A stretch of 64,000 bases of DNA, taken from positions 1-64,000 of IMG/VR virus record IMGVR_UViG_3300017788_002590; one strand, 5' to 3'. A model generated the notes under the pieces. It was not told the origin of the DNA. It worked only from the letters and a program-made list of their open reading frames with translations, and did no database searches. Source of the stretch: a virus. Made by a program: the position numbers and the translations under genes. Shown here in pieces: positions 29,829 to 47,162 of this stretch. Numbering within the stretch: the stretch's first letter is position 1; each line of letters starts with the position of its first letter.

Positions 29829-29857
29829 ATTATACCATGTCGTCGTTTGGGAGTCAA
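29829..29857 (-). promoter_or_regulatory. Consensus sigma70-type promoter for ssb
   Basis: On the minus strand, TTGACT (29857-29852) and a perfect TATAAT (29834-29829) are 17 bases apart. The -35 box overlaps the TGA stop of the polymerase C-half gene. The predicted transcript has a leader of about 37 bases with an AAGGAG site. Confidence 0.8.
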
Positions 29858-31476
29858 GTGCGTGGAATATAAGCTTTTTCAACTATAAAACTATCTCCCG
29901 AATTGTTTTTCTTTCCTTGTAGAATTACAACATTATGATCAAATAAAATATTCCTATATGTTTTGTAGGCATCGGGAAAAAATATGACACTGTCTATGGA
30001 TCCATAACTATCTGATAATGTAACAAATGCCATCTCGGATCCAGGGCTTTTGCCAGTTTTTGTTTTTGTAACACTAATATTATCTATTTCTCCACAAATC
30101 AATAGGTTTTCTCTATTAAGAATAGTTTTAAACTCTTTACAATTACAATTTGTCATACTTACATCATACATATCTACTTTAGAACAAGTGATACTACAAC
30201 CTAAAATCTCTTCCTCAGAATCAGATAACCATTCTGCACTATCATCCATCGAATATGGCGGAAAAGCCAAAGTATCTATTAATCCATTAATAGCATCAAT
30301 TCTTTTTTTTGTTGTTCTTGGTTTATTTTTTAAAGACTGTAGACCATTTTTTAACGAGTTATCAGATTTGGTATTCATTTGAATGAATTGTTGTTCACTT
30401 TTTGTTAATGAGCTTGCTATATCAAATTCAAACATCATAGATGTTCTAGTTTTTTTACAAAAAGATAATGCTCCACTTTTAATTAAGGCTTTAGCAGACA
30501 TAGAGTTTATATTTAGTAGTATGTCGAATAATAGTTCGTACCAAGAAATCGATTGTAAATCTATATTTTTTTGGACTATGATATCTTTTAGTTTTGAGAA
30601 AACAGAATTGCCAAAACCTTTGATATCTGTTAAACCAAAATATATGCACTGATTTTTTAGTATAAAAAATTCATTAAGATTTCTTAAGTCAGGAATACAA
30701 ACCGATATATCCATTTCGTTAGCATTCTGAACTAGTTCCTTAATTTCTGCTTTTGGATTAATCTTGTCTTTGGCAAAACGCAGATATGATGCAAAAAATA
30801 TTTTAGGGAAATGTGCTTTTGTAAAAGCTGATAGATAAGCATTCATAGCATACGATACAGCATGGCTTTTATTAAAAGAATATCTTTGGCTTTTTTCTAT
30901 CCATCCGAAAATTTCTTCTGCTTGTTTAATATTTACTGTGCCTAACTTATCACATCCATCTAAGAATTTAGTTTTAAGTTTTGCCATTTCTTCTGGTTTT
31001 TTCTTTCCTATAGCTTTTCTTAAACTATCTGCTTCTTGTAAGTCGAAACCAGCTATAATTTTGGCTATTTCCATGGCTTGTTCCTGATATATCATTTCTC
31101 CATATGTTTTTTTTAGAATTGGTTCTAATGATGGATGATAATAGTCTACAGATTCTTGTCCATTTTTTTTGTCTATATAATGATTGCTAACGGTTTTACC
31201 ATCTCTAATAGCTTCCAAGCATCCTGGTCTTAGAATACTAATCAAAGCCGATAGTTGCTCTATGTTTTTAGGTTTTAGTTTTTTTGCCATAGACCTACCA
31301 AGTCTAGACTCAAGCTGAAAACATCCTTTTGTATTTCCTTCTGAAATTAAATCCCATGTCATATTACAGTCTAAATTTAGAGTGTCATTAATTGGATCAA
31401 AGTCTATCAATGGATAGCCCTCTGTTTCCGAAATCACCTTAAATTTGCAACCACAAGGATATGTATAATACTTCAT
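29854..31476 (-). CDS. dnaE: DNA polymerase III alpha, C-terminal half (540 aa)
   Basis: It continues the polymerase exactly where the N-half stops. After a short unique leader with CGCKF, it opens in the region NTKGCFQLESRLGRSMAKKL and LSALISILRPGC, the fingers domain that follows the palm. It goes on with EMIYQEQAMEIAKIIAGFDL, SYAMNAYLSAFTKAHFPKIF and helix-hairpin-helix-type segments. An OB domain lies at the end (about 455-540, LICGEIDNISVTKTKTG). No polymerase catalytic aspartates are present here. The beta/tau-binding C-terminal extension of bacterial DnaE appears short or missing. It needs the product of the gene at 32347 to form an active enzyme. Its ATG overlaps the stop of the exonuclease gene by 4 bases. 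Confidence 0.88.
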   Translation of the reverse strand: MKYYTYPCGCKFKVISETEGYPLIDFDPINDTLNLDCNMTWDLISEGNTKGCFQLESRLGRSMAKKLKPKNIEQLSALISILRPGCLEAIRDGKTVSNHYIDKKNGQESVDYYHPSLEPILKKTYGEMIYQEQAMEIAKIIAGFDLQEADSLRKAIGKKKPEEMAKLKTKFLDGCDKLGTVNIKQAEEIFGWIEKSQRYSFNKSHAVSYAMNAYLSAFTKAHFPKIFFASYLRFAKDKINPKAEIKELVQNANEMDISVCIPDLRNLNEFFILKNQCIYFGLTDIKGFGNSVFSKLKDIIVQKNIDLQSISWYELLFDILLNINSMSAKALIKSGALSFCKKTRTSMMFEFDIASSLTKSEQQFIQMNTKSDNSLKNGLQSLKNKPRTTKKRIDAINGLIDTLAFPPYSMDDSAEWLSDSEEEILGCSITCSKVDMYDVSMTNCNCKEFKTILNRENLLICGEIDNISVTKTKTGKSPGSEMAFVTLSDSYGSIDSVIFFPDAYKTYRNILFDHNVVILQGKKNNSGDSFIVEKAYIPRT

Positions 31477-32168
31477 GTCTTATTTTTGAAAGAGTCCTTA
31501 AACTTGACTTTAGTAGACATTTTTCTGTGTAGTCTTAGAAATCGTATAAGTATTTCTGCACAGTCTTTGACATCTTTTAAAGCATCATGAGCACCGTCTT
31601 TTGAGATTCCCAAATAATCTCTTAGCGTATCCATAGAATAATTTTTGAGATCATTATTTTGTTCGAACCAATAAAAAACTAAATTCATAATATCAATTAT
31701 ATCTCTAGGATAAAAAAGATTACTAGTATTTTCCTTATTTACATTATTGTGCTTTTTACTCAAACGATCAACTATTTTCATATCGAATCTGTATATATTA
31801 TACCCAGCCGCTATAGGAGCGGAAAATTGACTTTTTTTACTAGCTCTAGTGTGGTATTTCATCAAGTATTCAGTAAAAACCTTCCAAGAATGTTGTTGAT
31901 TTGGATAGGTTAGCCACTGTTGTAAAATATTTTCTTTAGCACATCCTCTTACTTTGGCATGAAAATCTAGAATATCTGTTTGGTATTCATATTTCTCGTC
32001 TTTCTCTAGAGGCTCGGGCTTTAAGAAAATATTACATTCGGAATCTGGTATAATTTCCAAACTCAAAGGATCTATCATTATAGCGGCCAATTGTACGGGA
32101 CTGCATTCGCTTGGATCGGTCCCGTCTGTTTCAAAATCGAAAACACAAATTTTGTTGTAATTGATCAT
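31473..32168 (-). CDS. DEDDh 3'-5' exonuclease (proofreading subunit, 231 aa)
   Basis: Contains the DEDD exonuclease motifs: CVFDFETDGTDPSECSPVQL (D11 and E13, Exo I), APIAAGYNIYRFDMKIVDRL (Exo II), and GAHDALKDVKDCAEILI (Exo III with the conserved H and D). It resembles DnaQ/exonuclease I-type proofreading enzymes. It removes mismatched 3' ends, presumably for the split polymerase whose two halves flank it, and it is likely a partner of them. It begins 6 bases after the 56-residue gene and overlaps the C-half gene by 4 bases. Confidence 0.87.
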   Translation of the reverse strand: MINYNKICVFDFETDGTDPSECSPVQLAAIMIDPLSLEIIPDSECNIFLKPEPLEKDEKYEYQTDILDFHAKVRGCAKENILQQWLTYPNQQHSWKVFTEYLMKYHTRASKKSQFSAPIAAGYNIYRFDMKIVDRLSKKHNNVNKENTSNLFYPRDIIDIMNLVFYWFEQNNDLKNYSMDTLRDYLGISKDGAHDALKDVKDCAEILIRFLRLHRKMSTKVKFKDSFKNKT

Positions 32169-32174
32169 TGATAG

Positions 32175-32345
32175 TCAGTCTACCTTTGTTACGTCGTTTG
32201 CTGGGACAATAAAAGCTTTTTCATTAGTTGCTATAACTTTTGCATTCAAAACTTTACAGCAGCTAATTCTTTCATCTGGAATTCTTATATATTCTATATT
32301 ATCATATATAAATTTATCGTTAACTTGTAATTCATGGAATTTCAT
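32175..32345 (-). CDS. Small unknown protein between polymerase N-half and exonuclease (56 aa)
   Basis: A 57-codon frame with an ATG at 32345, one base beyond the stop of the polymerase N-half. It has a GGAGC ribosome-binding site 6-9 bases upstream, inside that gene's end. The product starts MKFHELQVNDKFIYDN and continues with DERISCCKVLNAKVIA, a small beta-rich protein with two adjacent cysteines and no membrane part. It is sandwiched in the polymerase operon and separated from the exonuclease gene by 6 bases. The tight packing and ribosome-binding site support a real gene. Function unknown; short proteins of the type MKFxELxVxDKF occur in many phages. Confidence 0.7.
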   Translation of the reverse strand: MKFHELQVNDKFIYDNIEYIRIPDERISCCKVLNAKVIATNEKAFIVPANDVTKVD

Positions 32346-32346
32346 T

Positions 32347-34221
32347 TTATGCTCCTTTTTGTAAAAGTTGTTGAATAGTCATAACCTTATCAAGCATTGC
32401 TACACCAAGAATATCGAATTTAATAATTCCAATAGATTCTAGATCTTGCATTTCCATACCGGCAATCATTTGATTATTTTTGGTATCATAAACCATAGGA
32501 CATATTTCGTTTAATGGAGTAGCGCTGATAGCGATACCAGCGGCATGTTTAGATTGGTTAGATTTGGTGCCTTCTAATCTCATAGACTGATCAAATCTTT
32601 TTGCTAGCGGTCCCTGAGTTTCGCCCTTGTCGTCTAAATAGCACCATTCTTTGAGTTTATCCGCATTGTTTTCTAATGCCCATCTAATAATTGATGCTTC
32701 GCCGGTTTCTTCTTTCATTTCTTGTAGCTCATCTGCTATTTTGGCTTCATCCGGAATATTTTTAGTTATATTATTCATTTCATCAAAAGACACGTTACCA
32801 TAAACTCTCAGAACATCTTTTAGAGCACCTCTTCCTTTGATAGTATTAAATGTAATCATTTGTGATACTTTATCAGCACCGTATTGATTTTTAATATATT
32901 GAATTACATTTTCTCTCTGGTTAATTGGAACATCGACATCTATATCTGGCATAGAAATATGATTGGAGGTATTTCTACCGGCGTTATAAAATCTATCAAA
33001 CATTAGATTATATTCTATGGGATTAATATTCGTAATACCTATTAGGTATGACACCAAACAGCCAGCAGCGCTTCCTCTGCCAGGACCGGGAAGCCAATTA
33101 TTATTACGAACATAATTTACAATATCTTGCACTATAAGAAAATAACTTGATAATCCAGCACCTTGCAACACATCTAATTCATATTTAATGCGATCCACAT
33201 ATTGTGCTTGATTTTCTAGCGGTATTTGATTAGCTATTTTTTGTTTCCATCCTGTGCGACATAATTCTCTAAGATACTCCACATCGGTTTGTTGTTTTGG
33301 ACACTTAAACGGAGGTAGATTAGGTGTGCTTAGTATATTGTATTCCTCGCATAAAGAATCTACTAGTTTAGTGTTCTCTATTTCTTCTTCGGTATGCAAA
33401 TCATTGATTTCTTCCTGAGATAATATATGAAAATTATCTGAAAGAAAAAATGCAGATAGTGGAACTTTTTCGTTATTGGTAATTTTTCTATTGATCTCTG
33501 GAAATGTTGTTTTCAGATTATTACATAATAAAATTCTTTGATCAATAGCGTCGCTTTTATTGCAATAATGAGCGTCTGGTGTGCATACTATCTTGGTTCC
33601 GGTTAAAAGACCGAGTTGTCTTGTACACTCGGTTAGTTTTTCTTGAATAGGAGCATTTTGCTTATCCATTAACTGAACCTCAAGAAAAAAATTGTTTTTC
33701 CCAAATATATCTTTCATAGTAGATATATGGTTTTCTCCGATATTTTTCCAATCGCTTATGATATTATCGTCAGAAACTATTGAATCGGCTAATGTGGACC
33801 CCAAATGACCACTAATTCCGATTAGATTACCGTCTATTAAATCTTGTAGTTGTTGTAAACTTAATCTTGGTTTATGGTAATAAAATTCTGGTTTATTAGA
33901 CATAGAAACTATTTTAATTAAGTTTTTCCAGCCCTTATAGTTTTTAGCTAAAACCAGCAAATGACTAAGAGATTTATTAGATTTATCTTGAATAGACGCA
34001 TGGTTATCAGAAACATACAATTCGCACCCAAGAATTGGTTTGATGCCTCTACGCTTCATTTCTGTATAGAACTTGATGCTTCCGGCGATATTGCCATGAT
34101 CCGTTAAGGCACAACTACTAACACCTATTTGTTCGCATCTGTCTGCTATCTGAGAAGGTTTAGATAAACCATCTAATAACGAGTACATAGAATGTACATG
34201 CAAAGGAATATATTGTTTCAT
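32347..34221 (-). CDS. dnaE: DNA polymerase III alpha, N-terminal half with catalytic aspartates (624 aa)
   Basis: The PHP domain starts at residue 1 (HVHSMYSLLDG, ALTDHGNIAG, GCELYVSDNH). The palm has GPGRGSAAGCLVSYLIG (378-395) and MPDIDVD (D426, D428). KFDILG places the third catalytic aspartate at D603. All three aspartates of the C-family active site are therefore in this half. The protein stops 21 residues after KFDILG, before the fingers region, which is encoded by the separate gene at 29854. No intein-like residues occur at its end (IQQLLQKGA), so this is not a cyanobacterial-type trans-splicing intein. It is the main replicative polymerase. Confidence 0.9.
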   Translation of the reverse strand: MKQYIPLHVHSMYSLLDGLSKPSQIADRCEQIGVSSCALTDHGNIAGSIKFYTEMKRRGIKPILGCELYVSDNHASIQDKSNKSLSHLLVLAKNYKGWKNLIKIVSMSNKPEFYYHKPRLSLQQLQDLIDGNLIGISGHLGSTLADSIVSDDNIISDWKNIGENHISTMKDIFGKNNFFLEVQLMDKQNAPIQEKLTECTRQLGLLTGTKIVCTPDAHYCNKSDAIDQRILLCNNLKTTFPEINRKITNNEKVPLSAFFLSDNFHILSQEEINDLHTEEEIENTKLVDSLCEEYNILSTPNLPPFKCPKQQTDVEYLRELCRTGWKQKIANQIPLENQAQYVDRIKYELDVLQGAGLSSYFLIVQDIVNYVRNNNWLPGPGRGSAAGCLVSYLIGITNINPIEYNLMFDRFYNAGRNTSNHISMPDIDVDVPINQRENVIQYIKNQYGADKVSQMITFNTIKGRGALKDVLRVYGNVSFDEMNNITKNIPDEAKIADELQEMKEETGEASIIRWALENNADKLKEWCYLDDKGETQGPLAKRFDQSMRLEGTKSNQSKHAAGIAISATPLNEICPMVYDTKNNQMIAGMEMQDLESIGIIKFDILGVAMLDKVMTIQQLLQKGA

Positions 34222-42586: not shown

Positions 42587-43150
42587 TTATTGTATATAAT
42601 TTAACCATGGCTTTGGAATATCCTGTGATATAGTAAGTAGTTCACTATACAAAGGCAAGTATCTTGGAGATTTTTTTGGAATATAGGCATTATTTATTAG
42701 AGGCATATTGGCTTGGGTCGGTGTTTTATCTGCTTTTTTTGCATTACATTTCTTACATGCTGTTACAATATTAGTCCATGTTGTTGGAGAACTATTTTTT
42801 TTCCATTGTGATTTAGGTATAATATGATCATATGTTAACTGATTAATACTATAGGAATGACCACAATATTGGCAAGTATAATTATCTCGTATAAAAAGAT
42901 TTTTTCTAGAAAAATTAACTGGCGAATTATTGATTCTAAAGTATCGAGTAGTTTTTATAACAGCTGGCAATTTAAATTTTCTATTTGCTGTTCCAACAAC
43001 ATAATCATTGTCATAATAGTCTATAATTTCAATACTAGGATTGTCTGTGCTATAGAAACGGTAATACCAAACCATAGCTCTTTGCCAGTCTATGATTCCT
43101 ATCGGAGAATAATCGGCATTTAGTACTAAACACGATTTATGATTGTTCAT
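42587..43150 (-). CDS. HNH endonuclease (187 aa)
   Basis: The HNH core includes CQYCG, QLTYDHIIPKSQW, WTNIVTACKKCNAKKAD, with two CxxC zinc pairs and the DH and N residues in the usual positions. A 100-residue N-terminal region precedes it (RAMVWYYRFYSTDNP). It is a site-specific nuclease of the type used for homing or DNA processing. It overlaps PhoH by 14 bases. Confidence 0.82.
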   Translation of the reverse strand: MNNHKSCLVLNADYSPIGIIDWQRAMVWYYRFYSTDNPSIEIIDYYDNDYVVGTANRKFKLPAVIKTTRYFRINNSPVNFSRKNLFIRDNYTCQYCGHSYSINQLTYDHIIPKSQWKKNSSPTTWTNIVTACKKCNAKKADKTPTQANMPLINNAYIPKKSPRYLPLYSELLTISQDIPKPWLNYIQ

Positions 43151-43883: not shown

Positions 43884-46800
43884 TTAGATTAGACATGCTC
43901 CACCAGCACAACTAATTTCCTCTATTCCAGTAGTATTATCCTCTGTTTCCAATAGTTGTGTATAATCTACTTTCTTAAATGTATTTAACAAATCACAATA
44001 TATTTTCCAATTATATACATCTTTCATACAATAAGTAAGTCTTCTTATATCTCCATCAAAATATTTACCAGCAAAATTTTTCATTTTAGTTACAAAGACT
44101 AATCTGGTGTCAGGATCTGAGGACTTAGCCTGATTCATTGCTACATAATCACAAGCTTTCCATAGATCACTATCGAAACTTGCTAACCCTAGTTCTATAA
44201 GTCCTGAGCACCATAACGCAGCATCTCCGTATTCTTTTACTATCTCTCTACTAGTGTAGACTGTCGTAAATGGAGCTTGAGGATAATCTTTATCTCCGCT
44301 TTGAGGTATCAAACTAACACCAGCAAAGTATTTTCTATTGTTATAGATATAATTTGTTACATCTTCCCATTCTTCCGGCTTAACAGTCACGGTATTACTT
44401 ACATTATGACTTAAAAACTCTTGAGTACACAGTGCTTTATTTTTACCAGAATATACCCAATTTTTTTGTGTATCTTTAACTATTGATAACATTTCTACCG
44501 CTGGTAATTGATTCTTTAATTTAGCCCCATCTGGAACTTCAATAGGAAACTTAATTACTTCATCCGTATTGTTAGCAGACCACGAAGAACGCTCACAGGC
44601 TTGTGGGTTATAATTTTTGAAGTGTTGATATGGTGCTTCTAAAACATTGGCCTGTACGTGTCTTATATAGCGTTTAGCGTGGTGTGGGTGGATGCCAGAA
44701 CTTGTTCCTAACATAGAACTAGATGTTCCCTCCGGTTTTAAACAGGTTACTCTAGCAGCTTGATTAATTCCGATTTTTTTGGCCATTTCTTTATTAGTTT
44801 CTACAGCAATTTTAGCTCCTGCCTTAAGAACTTTTTCTGTTAATACTATATCGTGTTTTTCCATGATCCCAGTTAAAGAGACCCCTAATAAGGCTTCTCT
44901 CTCAAAGATTCTACAGCTAATCTCGCCCAAATAATCTAATTTAGTAAATCCGGCTTGAAGAGTACCAATAATAGCTGCTGCTTTGCATCTTTCATAAAAA
45001 TCATTCTCATCTGTAACACTAGAACAATTAATTGTAGACAGATTACAACCTTGCCAACCACTCTTGCCGGTTTCTGCATCGACAGGCCACATACCAACTT
45101 CCACACAGTTATGTACATAAATAGCATCATTATCGAAAGCATGAATACCTTCTACTGTACAATCATACACATCTAATTCACCAACTATGGTCTTATTAAT
45201 TAAAGTATCAACAAAGTTAGTTCTATTTGGCATTCTTTGATAATTATTAACTATTGTTTGAATTTTATTAGCTTTATCAATATTTTTAATAGGAATATAT
45301 TTGGCAAATCTAACTATGTTATCACTAGTAATAACTAGTTCGTGTGATGCTTGGCAGAAATAGCTTTTTGTTCCACCACTACCATCTGGCATAACCCTAT
45401 CACCTTCTGATCTGCGATTTTTATAGATCTTAGAATAAATACCTAAAGCATTAAGTGCTATTTGTAGATTTTGTAAATTTTCTAATTGAACTGATGATAT
45501 TCTTAAGGAAGATCCTTTGATATTATTAACTAATACTGTTCCATCAGCATCGAAATAACCGGCAATTAAGCCAGAAATATGATTCCAAGACCCACAGATG
45601 GACTTTTTACTTAATCTTTTGGATGTTCCAACCATGCAATCGTGATTAATAGCAAATTCCATAAGTTTTCTTGATTCTATAGAACTATATACAGCAATAG
45701 AATTTTGTTCTGAAGAATTATGATTATTAGTAAATCCAACATCATGAAGCATTTGATATGCTTCTTGCCTATATTGCTCTTTAGATTCTCCCCACCACTT
45801 TAATTGTGCGGAAGATCTCGAATGATTTCCGTCTCCCAGGAACAATCCTAATAAATATCCTTTTTTCCAATCAGACGATAGTATATTTAGATTAGCCTCG
45901 CTGTCTAATGGATAATCTCTATGATTATTAATAACAATATTTTCACCAAAATTTATATCCCCTGCTTCTTTCCAGCCTGTTGTGGTCATGATTTTATGGT
46001 TTGGAGTTACTCTCAGGGTTCTACCTGATTTAAAATGTAATTCTATTACTTGTTTTGTGCCAGTTTTCCAGAAGCCTTTGTAGCTTGGATACGATATACC
46101 ATCCACGATAGCATTAAATGGTTTATTTATAAGATCAGCAACCATTTTAATACCACGATCAGTTACTACGGTAGAATCTGCAACAACACAAGGATTAAAA
46201 GTCATCTCTGTAGAATCACTCCAAATGAATCCTGGCTCACCAAATTCTTTGACGCTTTCCATCAATATTTCAAATTCTTCAAAAGTAGTATCATCTTTAA
46301 GTAACAAAGCAGAGTTATTGCTTCGTGCTCTTTGTGGATTTTCCGTATACCAGTTGCCAGTTTTAGCTTTAGCCATCTCTTCATCATTGGGACTAAATAG
46401 TGCCAAACTAGCAGAACGACGAACACCACCAGACAATACAGCATCGCTACTATGCATAATAATATCATATGCATCAATTGGACGTAATTTCTTTTGTCCA
46501 TTAGCAAGACAACGATCTAATAATGCTCGTATTTTTTCTAAGCCATTTTGTAATGGCTCAAATCCTGGAGCTTTGCCAACTCCTGATGATAATGACGATC
46601 CTTTTTCTCTAATATTAGAATAGTCAAATACTATATATTCATCCTTATAATCTTTAAATTTATCTTCCGATGGTTTAACAAAATATGAACTTAATAAAAC
46701 ACCTAAAGCATCAGACCAGCCCTCGATACTGTCTTCTATAACATATTTTCTACCAGTTTCTGATTTTGGTTCTTGTGATAACGATGGTAGTTTAGCAACA

Positions 46801-47162
46801 TGGTGCTTTTGTACACTAAAGCCCGTCCCACTACCACAAAGTAATAACCAAAAACATTCCTGGAAAAACCTTAAACGATCACAGTATGAACTTGTACAAT
46901 TGTACATTTTTGCATGACGCTTTAGTATTGGTTCTCCTCCAAATTGGAGGGCTCTTTGACTGCCTAATACTTTCTTTTTATACATAATATCATATGCCCA
47001 TTCGATATACTCTGATATGTTGTTATCGGCATAATAGTATAACATCATGTTTTTAACACGATCAACAGCTTCTTTCCAAGTTTCTCTACGATTCTTATCC
47101 TCTAACCATCTGGCATACTTACTAACAAAAGTATACGATTGAAGCTCATTGAGTGCTGACAT
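43884..47162 (-). CDS. nrdJ: Class II (AdoCbl-dependent) ribonucleoside-triphosphate reductase with in-frame intein (1092 aa)
   Basis: Extein segments 1-324 and 686-1092 total 731 residues, close to the ~739 of monomeric class II RTPR. Features include VLGSQRALQFGGEPILKRHA, FWLLLCGSGTGFSVQ, the spliced active-site motif NPCVE, and the C-terminal redox pair CAGGAC. It reduces ribonucleotides to deoxyribonucleotides using adenosylcobalamin. The intein (325-685) interrupts the gene between NP and C of that active-site motif, so no active enzyme forms before splicing. Strong AAGGAG site; the 5' leader contains a stem-loop. Residues outside the listed motifs were not assigned one by one. Confidence 0.9.
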   Translation of the reverse strand: MSALNELQSYTFVSKYARWLEDKNRRETWKEAVDRVKNMMLYYYADNNISEYIEWAYDIMYKKKVLGSQRALQFGGEPILKRHAKMYNCTSSYCDRLRFFQECFWLLLCGSGTGFSVQKHHVAKLPSLSQEPKSETGRKYVIEDSIEGWSDALGVLLSSYFVKPSEDKFKDYKDEYIVFDYSNIREKGSSLSSGVGKAPGFEPLQNGLEKIRALLDRCLANGQKKLRPIDAYDIIMHSSDAVLSGGVRRSASLALFSPNDEEMAKAKTGNWYTENPQRARSNNSALLLKDDTTFEEFEILMESVKEFGEPGFIWSDSTEMTFNPCVVADSTVVTDRGIKMVADLINKPFNAIVDGISYPSYKGFWKTGTKQVIELHFKSGRTLRVTPNHKIMTTTGWKEAGDINFGENIVINNHRDYPLDSEANLNILSSDWKKGYLLGLFLGDGNHSRSSAQLKWWGESKEQYRQEAYQMLHDVGFTNNHNSSEQNSIAVYSSIESRKLMEFAINHDCMVGTSKRLSKKSICGSWNHISGLIAGYFDADGTVLVNNIKGSSLRISSVQLENLQNLQIALNALGIYSKIYKNRRSEGDRVMPDGSGGTKSYFCQASHELVITSDNIVRFAKYIPIKNIDKANKIQTIVNNYQRMPNRTNFVDTLINKTIVGELDVYDCTVEGIHAFDNDAIYVHNCVEVGMWPVDAETGKSGWQGCNLSTINCSSVTDENDFYERCKAAAIIGTLQAGFTKLDYLGEISCRIFEREALLGVSLTGIMEKHDIVLTEKVLKAGAKIAVETNKEMAKKIGINQAARVTCLKPEGTSSSMLGTSSGIHPHHAKRYIRHVQANVLEAPYQHFKNYNPQACERSSWSANNTDEVIKFPIEVPDGAKLKNQLPAVEMLSIVKDTQKNWVYSGKNKALCTQEFLSHNVSNTVTVKPEEWEDVTNYIYNNRKYFAGVSLIPQSGDKDYPQAPFTTVYTSREIVKEYGDAALWCSGLIELGLASFDSDLWKACDYVAMNQAKSSDPDTRLVFVTKMKNFAGKYFDGDIRRLTYCMKDVYNWKIYCDLLNTFKKVDYTQLLETEDNTTGIEEISCAGGACLI
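45108..46190 (-). mobile_element. LAGLIDADG homing-endonuclease intein in nrdJ (361 aa)
   Basis: It begins with Cys (CVVADSTVVTDRGIKM) and ends with IYVHN followed by Cys+1, the canonical HN splice end. Block B is RVTPNHKIM with T and H. Two LAGLIDADG helices are visible, LLGLFLGDG and LIAGYFDADG. It is therefore probably able to splice and to home. It is inserted between N-P and the catalytic Cys of the RNR active site. No frameshift or stop is seen in it. Confidence 0.9.

Follow-up and report, generated by a model that had tools for sequence, protein, structure and literature searches.

Within the window, by which we mean the whole 64,000-nucleotide stretch analyzed from a 69,460-base virus record, a single open frame at 43884-47162 (minus strand) encodes the 1092-aa precursor of a monomeric class II (B12-type) ribonucleotide reductase (RNR), NrdJm/RTPR. 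The precursor is interrupted by an intein that the first-pass annotation had located at 45108-46190, coordinates that proved exact to the base. The features of the gene, with splice points marked by arrows in the text that follows, are:

43884..47162, minus strand: intein-containing nrdJm gene, 1092-aa precursor (ORF list, Pfam, NCBIfam, PDB)
46191..47162, minus strand: N-extein, 324 aa, ending T-F-N-P and holding the RTPR Cys119 counterpart (1l1l alignment)
45108..46190, minus strand: intein, 361 aa, Cys1 to Asn361 (C...VHN), precursor residues 325-685
45906..46190, minus strand: N-terminal splicing region, about residues 1-95, with block A Cys1 (boundary approximate, from the model)
45237..45881, minus strand: homing endonuclease domain of the two-motif LAGLIDADG type, about residues 104-318 (approximate boundary, taken from the model)
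45828-45860, minus strand: LAGLIDADG motif 1, GYLLGLFLGDG
45540-45575, minus strand: LAGLIDADG motif 2, SGLIAGYFDADG
45108..45227, minus strand: C-terminal splicing region, about residues 322-361, with blocks F and G, ending V-H-N
45105..45107, minus strand: +1 Cys codon TGT, splice nucleophile and radical Cys (RTPR Cys408 counterpart; 1l1l alignment)
43884..45107, minus strand: C-extein, 407 aa plus stop, beginning C-V-E-V-G and holding the Cys419 counterpart and the C-terminal Cys pair

Searches of Pfam, NCBIfam and likewise the PDB returned an RTPR-type ribonucleotide reductase together with LAGLIDADG_3, Intein_splicing and an intein N-terminal region. The best NCBIfam family is RTPR (TIGR02505; 3e-54), its 184 bits lying below the equivalog cut-off of 340 for a query that is interrupted by an intein. 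The predicted spliced product has 731 aa and reads F-N-P-C-V-E across the junction, close in length to the monomeric RTPR of 1l1l (739). PF02867 matched solely at the nrdJm locus, and no second RNR was found in the virus record. Neighboring genes encode PhoH, an HNH endonuclease and a deoxycytidylate-deaminase-like protein; the free-standing HNH endonuclease gene (42587-43150, minus strand) overlaps the end of the PhoH gene and lies two genes downstream of the RNR gene. Elsewhere in the window (29854-34221, minus strand), DNA polymerase III alpha is in two pieces, one at 32347-34221 (PHP and palm) and the other at 29854-31476 (fingers to OB fold), which are separated by a small ORF and a DnaQ-like exonuclease (31473-32168); we looked for a split intein in these pieces and saw no intein fragments.

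The functional roles of the catalytic RTPR residues are established for the family. Since the Lactobacillus leichmannii enzyme is distant, and HMMER, when it aligned the extein directly with 1l1l, ended short of the NPC motif, we took a Microcystis phage homologue (46 and 41% identical to the window N- and C-exteins, respectively) as a bridge. Its N-P-C-C-E aligns with N406-P407-C408-G409-E410 of 1l1l and its next Cys with C419, and N-P-C and C-N-L are invariant between this protein and the close relatives of the window. From the bridged alignment and this invariance, the residue that follows the intein (45105-45107) is therefore both the radical cysteine and the +1 nucleophile, as had been proposed from the sequence, with N-P-C falling on N406-P407-C408 of the RTPR structure. 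Once spliced, the protein carries the N-x-C-x-E radical site as N-P-C-V-E, and it also has the redox pair, precursor Cys89 and Cys706, at the counterparts of RTPR Cys119 (46896-46898) and Cys419 (45045-45047), as well as a C-terminal Cys pair (43908-43910 and 43893-43895) in a C-A-G-G-A-C end. Activity before splicing is very unlikely because the precursor has no contiguous N-P-C-x-E active site; we infer on sound grounds that the precursor should be inactive and that reductase activity should require splicing, and at this strength the first-pass statement that no active RNR forms before splicing holds.

The intein begins with a Cys codon (46188-46190) directly after N-P, giving the insertion point FNP↓C...VHN↓CVE, and has the features of class 1, namely Cys1 and a C-terminal His-Asn followed by a +1 Cys. 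Block B reads T-P-N-H (45996-46007), in agreement with T-x-x-H. Profile matches are to LAGLIDADG_3 (4e-21) and Intein_splicing (1e-13, above the cut-off) in Pfam, and to intein_Nterm (3e-8) in NCBIfam. In an alignment of 21 same-site inteins, T62 and H65 of block B and both LAGLIDADG Asp-Gly pairs are invariant or nearly so, and the acidic residues D120 and D216 are conserved in the two motifs, bearing out the earlier view that block B and both motifs are intact. An AlphaFold run with this alignment gave a confident intein-plus-endonuclease fold (pLDDT 90, pTM 0.89) with the HINT splicing fold, for which the best solved matches are the intein-endonucleases TliVMA (E 6e-17), PI-SceI and PI-PfuI (1dq3). 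These share with the window intein a splicing domain and a two-motif LAGLIDADG endonuclease, but they are just 11-17% identical to it and reside in RIR1 of Pyrococcus or in VMA ATPases. Chance is ruled out by the profile E-values and by the existence of relatives with an empty site, and the element is most likely a working, homing and selfish class 1 intein.

The distribution of the intein among related phages is patchy. The same in-frame element, 80-92% identical and with exact junctions, occupies 17 other IMG/VR loci, and the site is empty in 73 of the 80 loci whose C-exteins are closest, filled by this intein in six and filled by a different intein in one, so that related phages indeed have the same site empty, a point raised for checking at the first pass. 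Mapped onto the extein tree, intein presence requires at least nine to ten changes. One comparison pairs an intein-containing locus (L028) with two intein-less ones (L095 and L096), in which 967/969 bases of the N-extein and 1191/1221 of the C-extein are identical (99.8 and 97.5%) and the insertion is exact; two silent differences immediately following the insertion point may mark a short tract of co-conversion, although they are no more than suggestive of it. Conversely, the inteins of L017 and L020 are 95% identical in DNA whereas 75% of silent sites differ between the two C-exteins (saturated), and the intein of L024 is 83% identical to that of the window whereas the exteins are just 61-65% identical. 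The empty-site relatives, the conflict with the tree and the L017/L020 and L028/L095 comparisons all show horizontal movement into intein-less alleles; on the evidence of these alignments, the intein has moved between diverged phages. Purifying selection acts strongly on the C-extein and on all parts of the intein, where median pN/pS is 0.12 in the N-terminal splicing region, 0.18 in the endonuclease and 0.10 in the C-terminal splicing region, and therefore both functions are selected. This pattern is that expected of an active homing intein, and both DNA cleavage and splicing are predicted and should occur. At the same site, L031 (843-2030) carries a different intein of 396 aa, 29% identical, within exteins 91% identical to those of the window; it ends I-T-S-R-R, not H-N or G-N, and may be splicing-incompetent.

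To place the site in a wider context, a single pattern scan (VHN↓C[A/G]E-x-P-L) of 84,980 bacterial and archaeal species genomes yielded 24 stretches, 19 of which are class II RNRs with an intein running from NP↓C to VHN↓C, in Woesearchaeota, Hydrothermarchaeota, Calditenuis, Proteobacteria, WOR-3 and others. Three of the 19 are mini-inteins of 129-145 residues; endonuclease-free mini-inteins of this size (129-145 aa) at the RNR site are found in L116, L121 and L125, from Woesearchaeota and Aenigmatarchaeota. The window intein family clusters with the proteobacterial, WOR-3 and Calditenuis set (support 99/97), from which it follows that the intein allele was probably transferred between the NrdJ of cells and the NrdJm of phages. 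Inteins also fill this position in the NrdJm of Thermus phage G20c and of the phages TSP4 and ctwe8250. Class I RNRs with an intein at the equivalent point are those of SPbeta, a staphylococcal SPbeta-like phage, PH357, PG07 and a 595-kb phage. Variant termini occur among these: the inteins of PH357 (L009) and PG07 (L011) terminate with Gln (G-Q) instead of Asn, and that of ctwe8250 (L005, MW202615.1, 1420-4497) has Ser1 in place of Cys1 (NP↓S), followed by a +1 Cys. In addition, some 80 RNR inteins had been curated by 2009 (PMC2795772), and a halobacterial survey describes several RNR intein alleles, with rir1-b common to 55 bacteria (PMC4071816). As the same-site sequences attest, the site is a known intein hot spot in cellular and phage RNRs, neither new nor special to this phage.

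The same codon may also harbor an intron. In Pseudaeromonas phage KLEP7 (L004, OM654377.1, 1146-1375), the RNR gene is annotated as two pieces, parted by a 230-nt insert that lies inside the radical-Cys codon (T↓GT), ends in G, offers CCGU/GCGG P1-like and GACTA/TAGTC P7-like pairing and fits splice-site rules. Rfam gave no group I intron match to this insert, even with E up to 1, and the intron therefore stays putative on the basis of the P1/P7-like pairings and splice-site rules; intron and intein probably coincide at one codon. Separately, the nrdJ of Roseobacter phage CRP-7 (L008, MK613349.1, 2460-2670) is interrupted by a group I intron, scored at 79 bits by Rfam, that directly follows the codon of the second redox Cys (F-C↓N-L); an HNH-like ORF comes after the intron.

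Several named inteins resemble this one in part. Those of cellular class II RNRs (RIR1/NrdJ) share the NP↓C...VHN↓C point and a class 1 LAGLIDADG architecture and are 24-35% identical, but their host protein belongs to a different class II branch (C-G-E-x-P-L exteins), and some are endonuclease-free mini-inteins. The G20c, TSP4 and ctwe8250 inteins share both the phage monomeric class II host and the insertion point, but all three fall outside the intein clade of the window, that of G20c, described as a likely intein in a paper that excluded G20c on this account (PMC6459318), being about 22% identical. The Bacillus phage SPbeta BnrdE intein (Lazarevic, 1998, as cited in PMC3653736) is similarly placed before the equivalent N-L-C radical Cys, but in a class I reductase, with a -1 Leu, 23% identity and a group I intron elsewhere in the gene. 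NrdJ-1 also sits in a class II RNR active-site motif, but is split, lies one residue downstream (NPC↓SEI) and has a +1 Ser (PMC13123727). The Aquifex aeolicus R2 intein parts catalytic-site residues of an RNR, as here (PMC8772380), but does so in the metal subunit, and its splicing and effect on iron loading have been proven by experiment.

We consider it very probable that the radical cysteine is immediately preceded by a mobile class 1 LAGLIDADG intein, which self-splices to give active NrdJm, homes into empty nrdJ genes and is not a switch. In splicing, Cys1 would attack the Pro-Cys bond, the +1 Cys would take over the N-extein and Asn361 would cyclise, restoring N-P-C-V-E and, to judge from the intact motifs, an active reductase. 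In homing, the endonuclease would cut the intein-less nrdJ of co-infecting related phages at the same site, and repair would then copy the intein into the cut gene; the mobility itself is evident from the sequence comparisons. The radical Cys would be used as the site because its invariant codon can neither mutate away nor tolerate imprecise loss of the insert, and the choice of site would not reflect a need of the phage for a switch. Against this explanation count the 69-kb virus fragment that makes up the record and the -1 proline, which could slow splicing.

This proline is the native -1 residue of the window intein, and for every class II intein at the NP↓C site the bond to be attacked is, given the junction residues, Pro-Cys (or Pro-Ser). 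A native -1 Pro is likewise present in the Mth RIR1 mini-intein, where it slows splicing in E. coli; our search for open literature on the native -1 Pro and on the Mth RIR1 intein found none. A -1 Pro is generally unfavorable for the first splicing step, which it compromises in NrdJ-1 (PMC13123727), so that splicing could be slow; it would be so unless the lineage of class II NP↓C inteins has become adapted to this residue. It is conceivable, if unlikely, that class II radical-Cys inteins are an old lineage adapted to -1 Pro-Cys in which N-extein folding at the Pro paces splicing, as a delay or fold check.

The first-pass annotation had gone on to propose that splicing gates dNTP production. 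Read as regulation, with splicing answering to redox, temperature or infection stage and timing the dNTP supply of the infected cell, this seems improbable to us, even though activity hinges on splicing, the active site being split by the insertion, the -1 Pro could provide slow splicing (PMC13123727), the Aquifex R2-subunit intein raises iron loading (PMC8772380) and stress-dependent splicing of inteins figures in at least one account (PMC6195587). Relatives with near-identical exteins lack the intein, which is thus dispensable, and a needed control function is unlikely because these close relatives manage with an empty site; moreover, the distribution is that of a homing element, and a review published in 2014 found no evidence that conditional splicing plays a physiological part (PMC4031507). 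Our search of the sequence for a regulatory feature for conditional splicing found none. The position of inteins near active sites is general, and has been read in part as pressure to keep splicing (PMC3359363). The requirement for splicing is a dependency, not regulation, and we set the regulatory gate aside as the main reading, given near-identical relatives that do without the intein. Of the original interpretation, the intein, its motifs, the radical-Cys junction and the dependency on splicing stand; gating as a control step is unproven and not favored, in view of the missing regulatory feature, the patchy presence, the near-identical intein-less exteins, the transfer and the selected endonuclease. 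The observation was correct and precise, and what it describes is an element of known kind at a known hot spot, not a new kind of switch.

It is less probable still that the intein is past splicing and homing and the gene a decaying or dead reductase. The different same-site intein of L031, with S-R-R for H-N, illustrates that decay can take place at this site, and the native -1 Pro is unfavorable, but neither the window nor its relatives show damage to any junction residue or motif, and purifying selection is strong across the intein parts and the C-extein; we reject degeneracy on these intact motifs and low pN/pS. That an error of assembly or annotation produced the apparent insertion, as might be suspected of a metagenomic virus contig, is refuted by the 17 other IMG/VR records with the same in-frame element and exact junctions and by clear profile and fold matches, leaving this reading with virtually no probability.

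The homing intein described here documents a phage reservoir for an intein site found in reductases of both class I and class II. The inteins in common engineering use perform poorly at Pro-Cys junctions, and with their native -1 Pro the class II same-site inteins are therefore candidates for such junctions. Moreover, since the intein-containing and intein-less pairs are near-identical in DNA, the question of parasite or regulator is directly testable in one essential enzyme.
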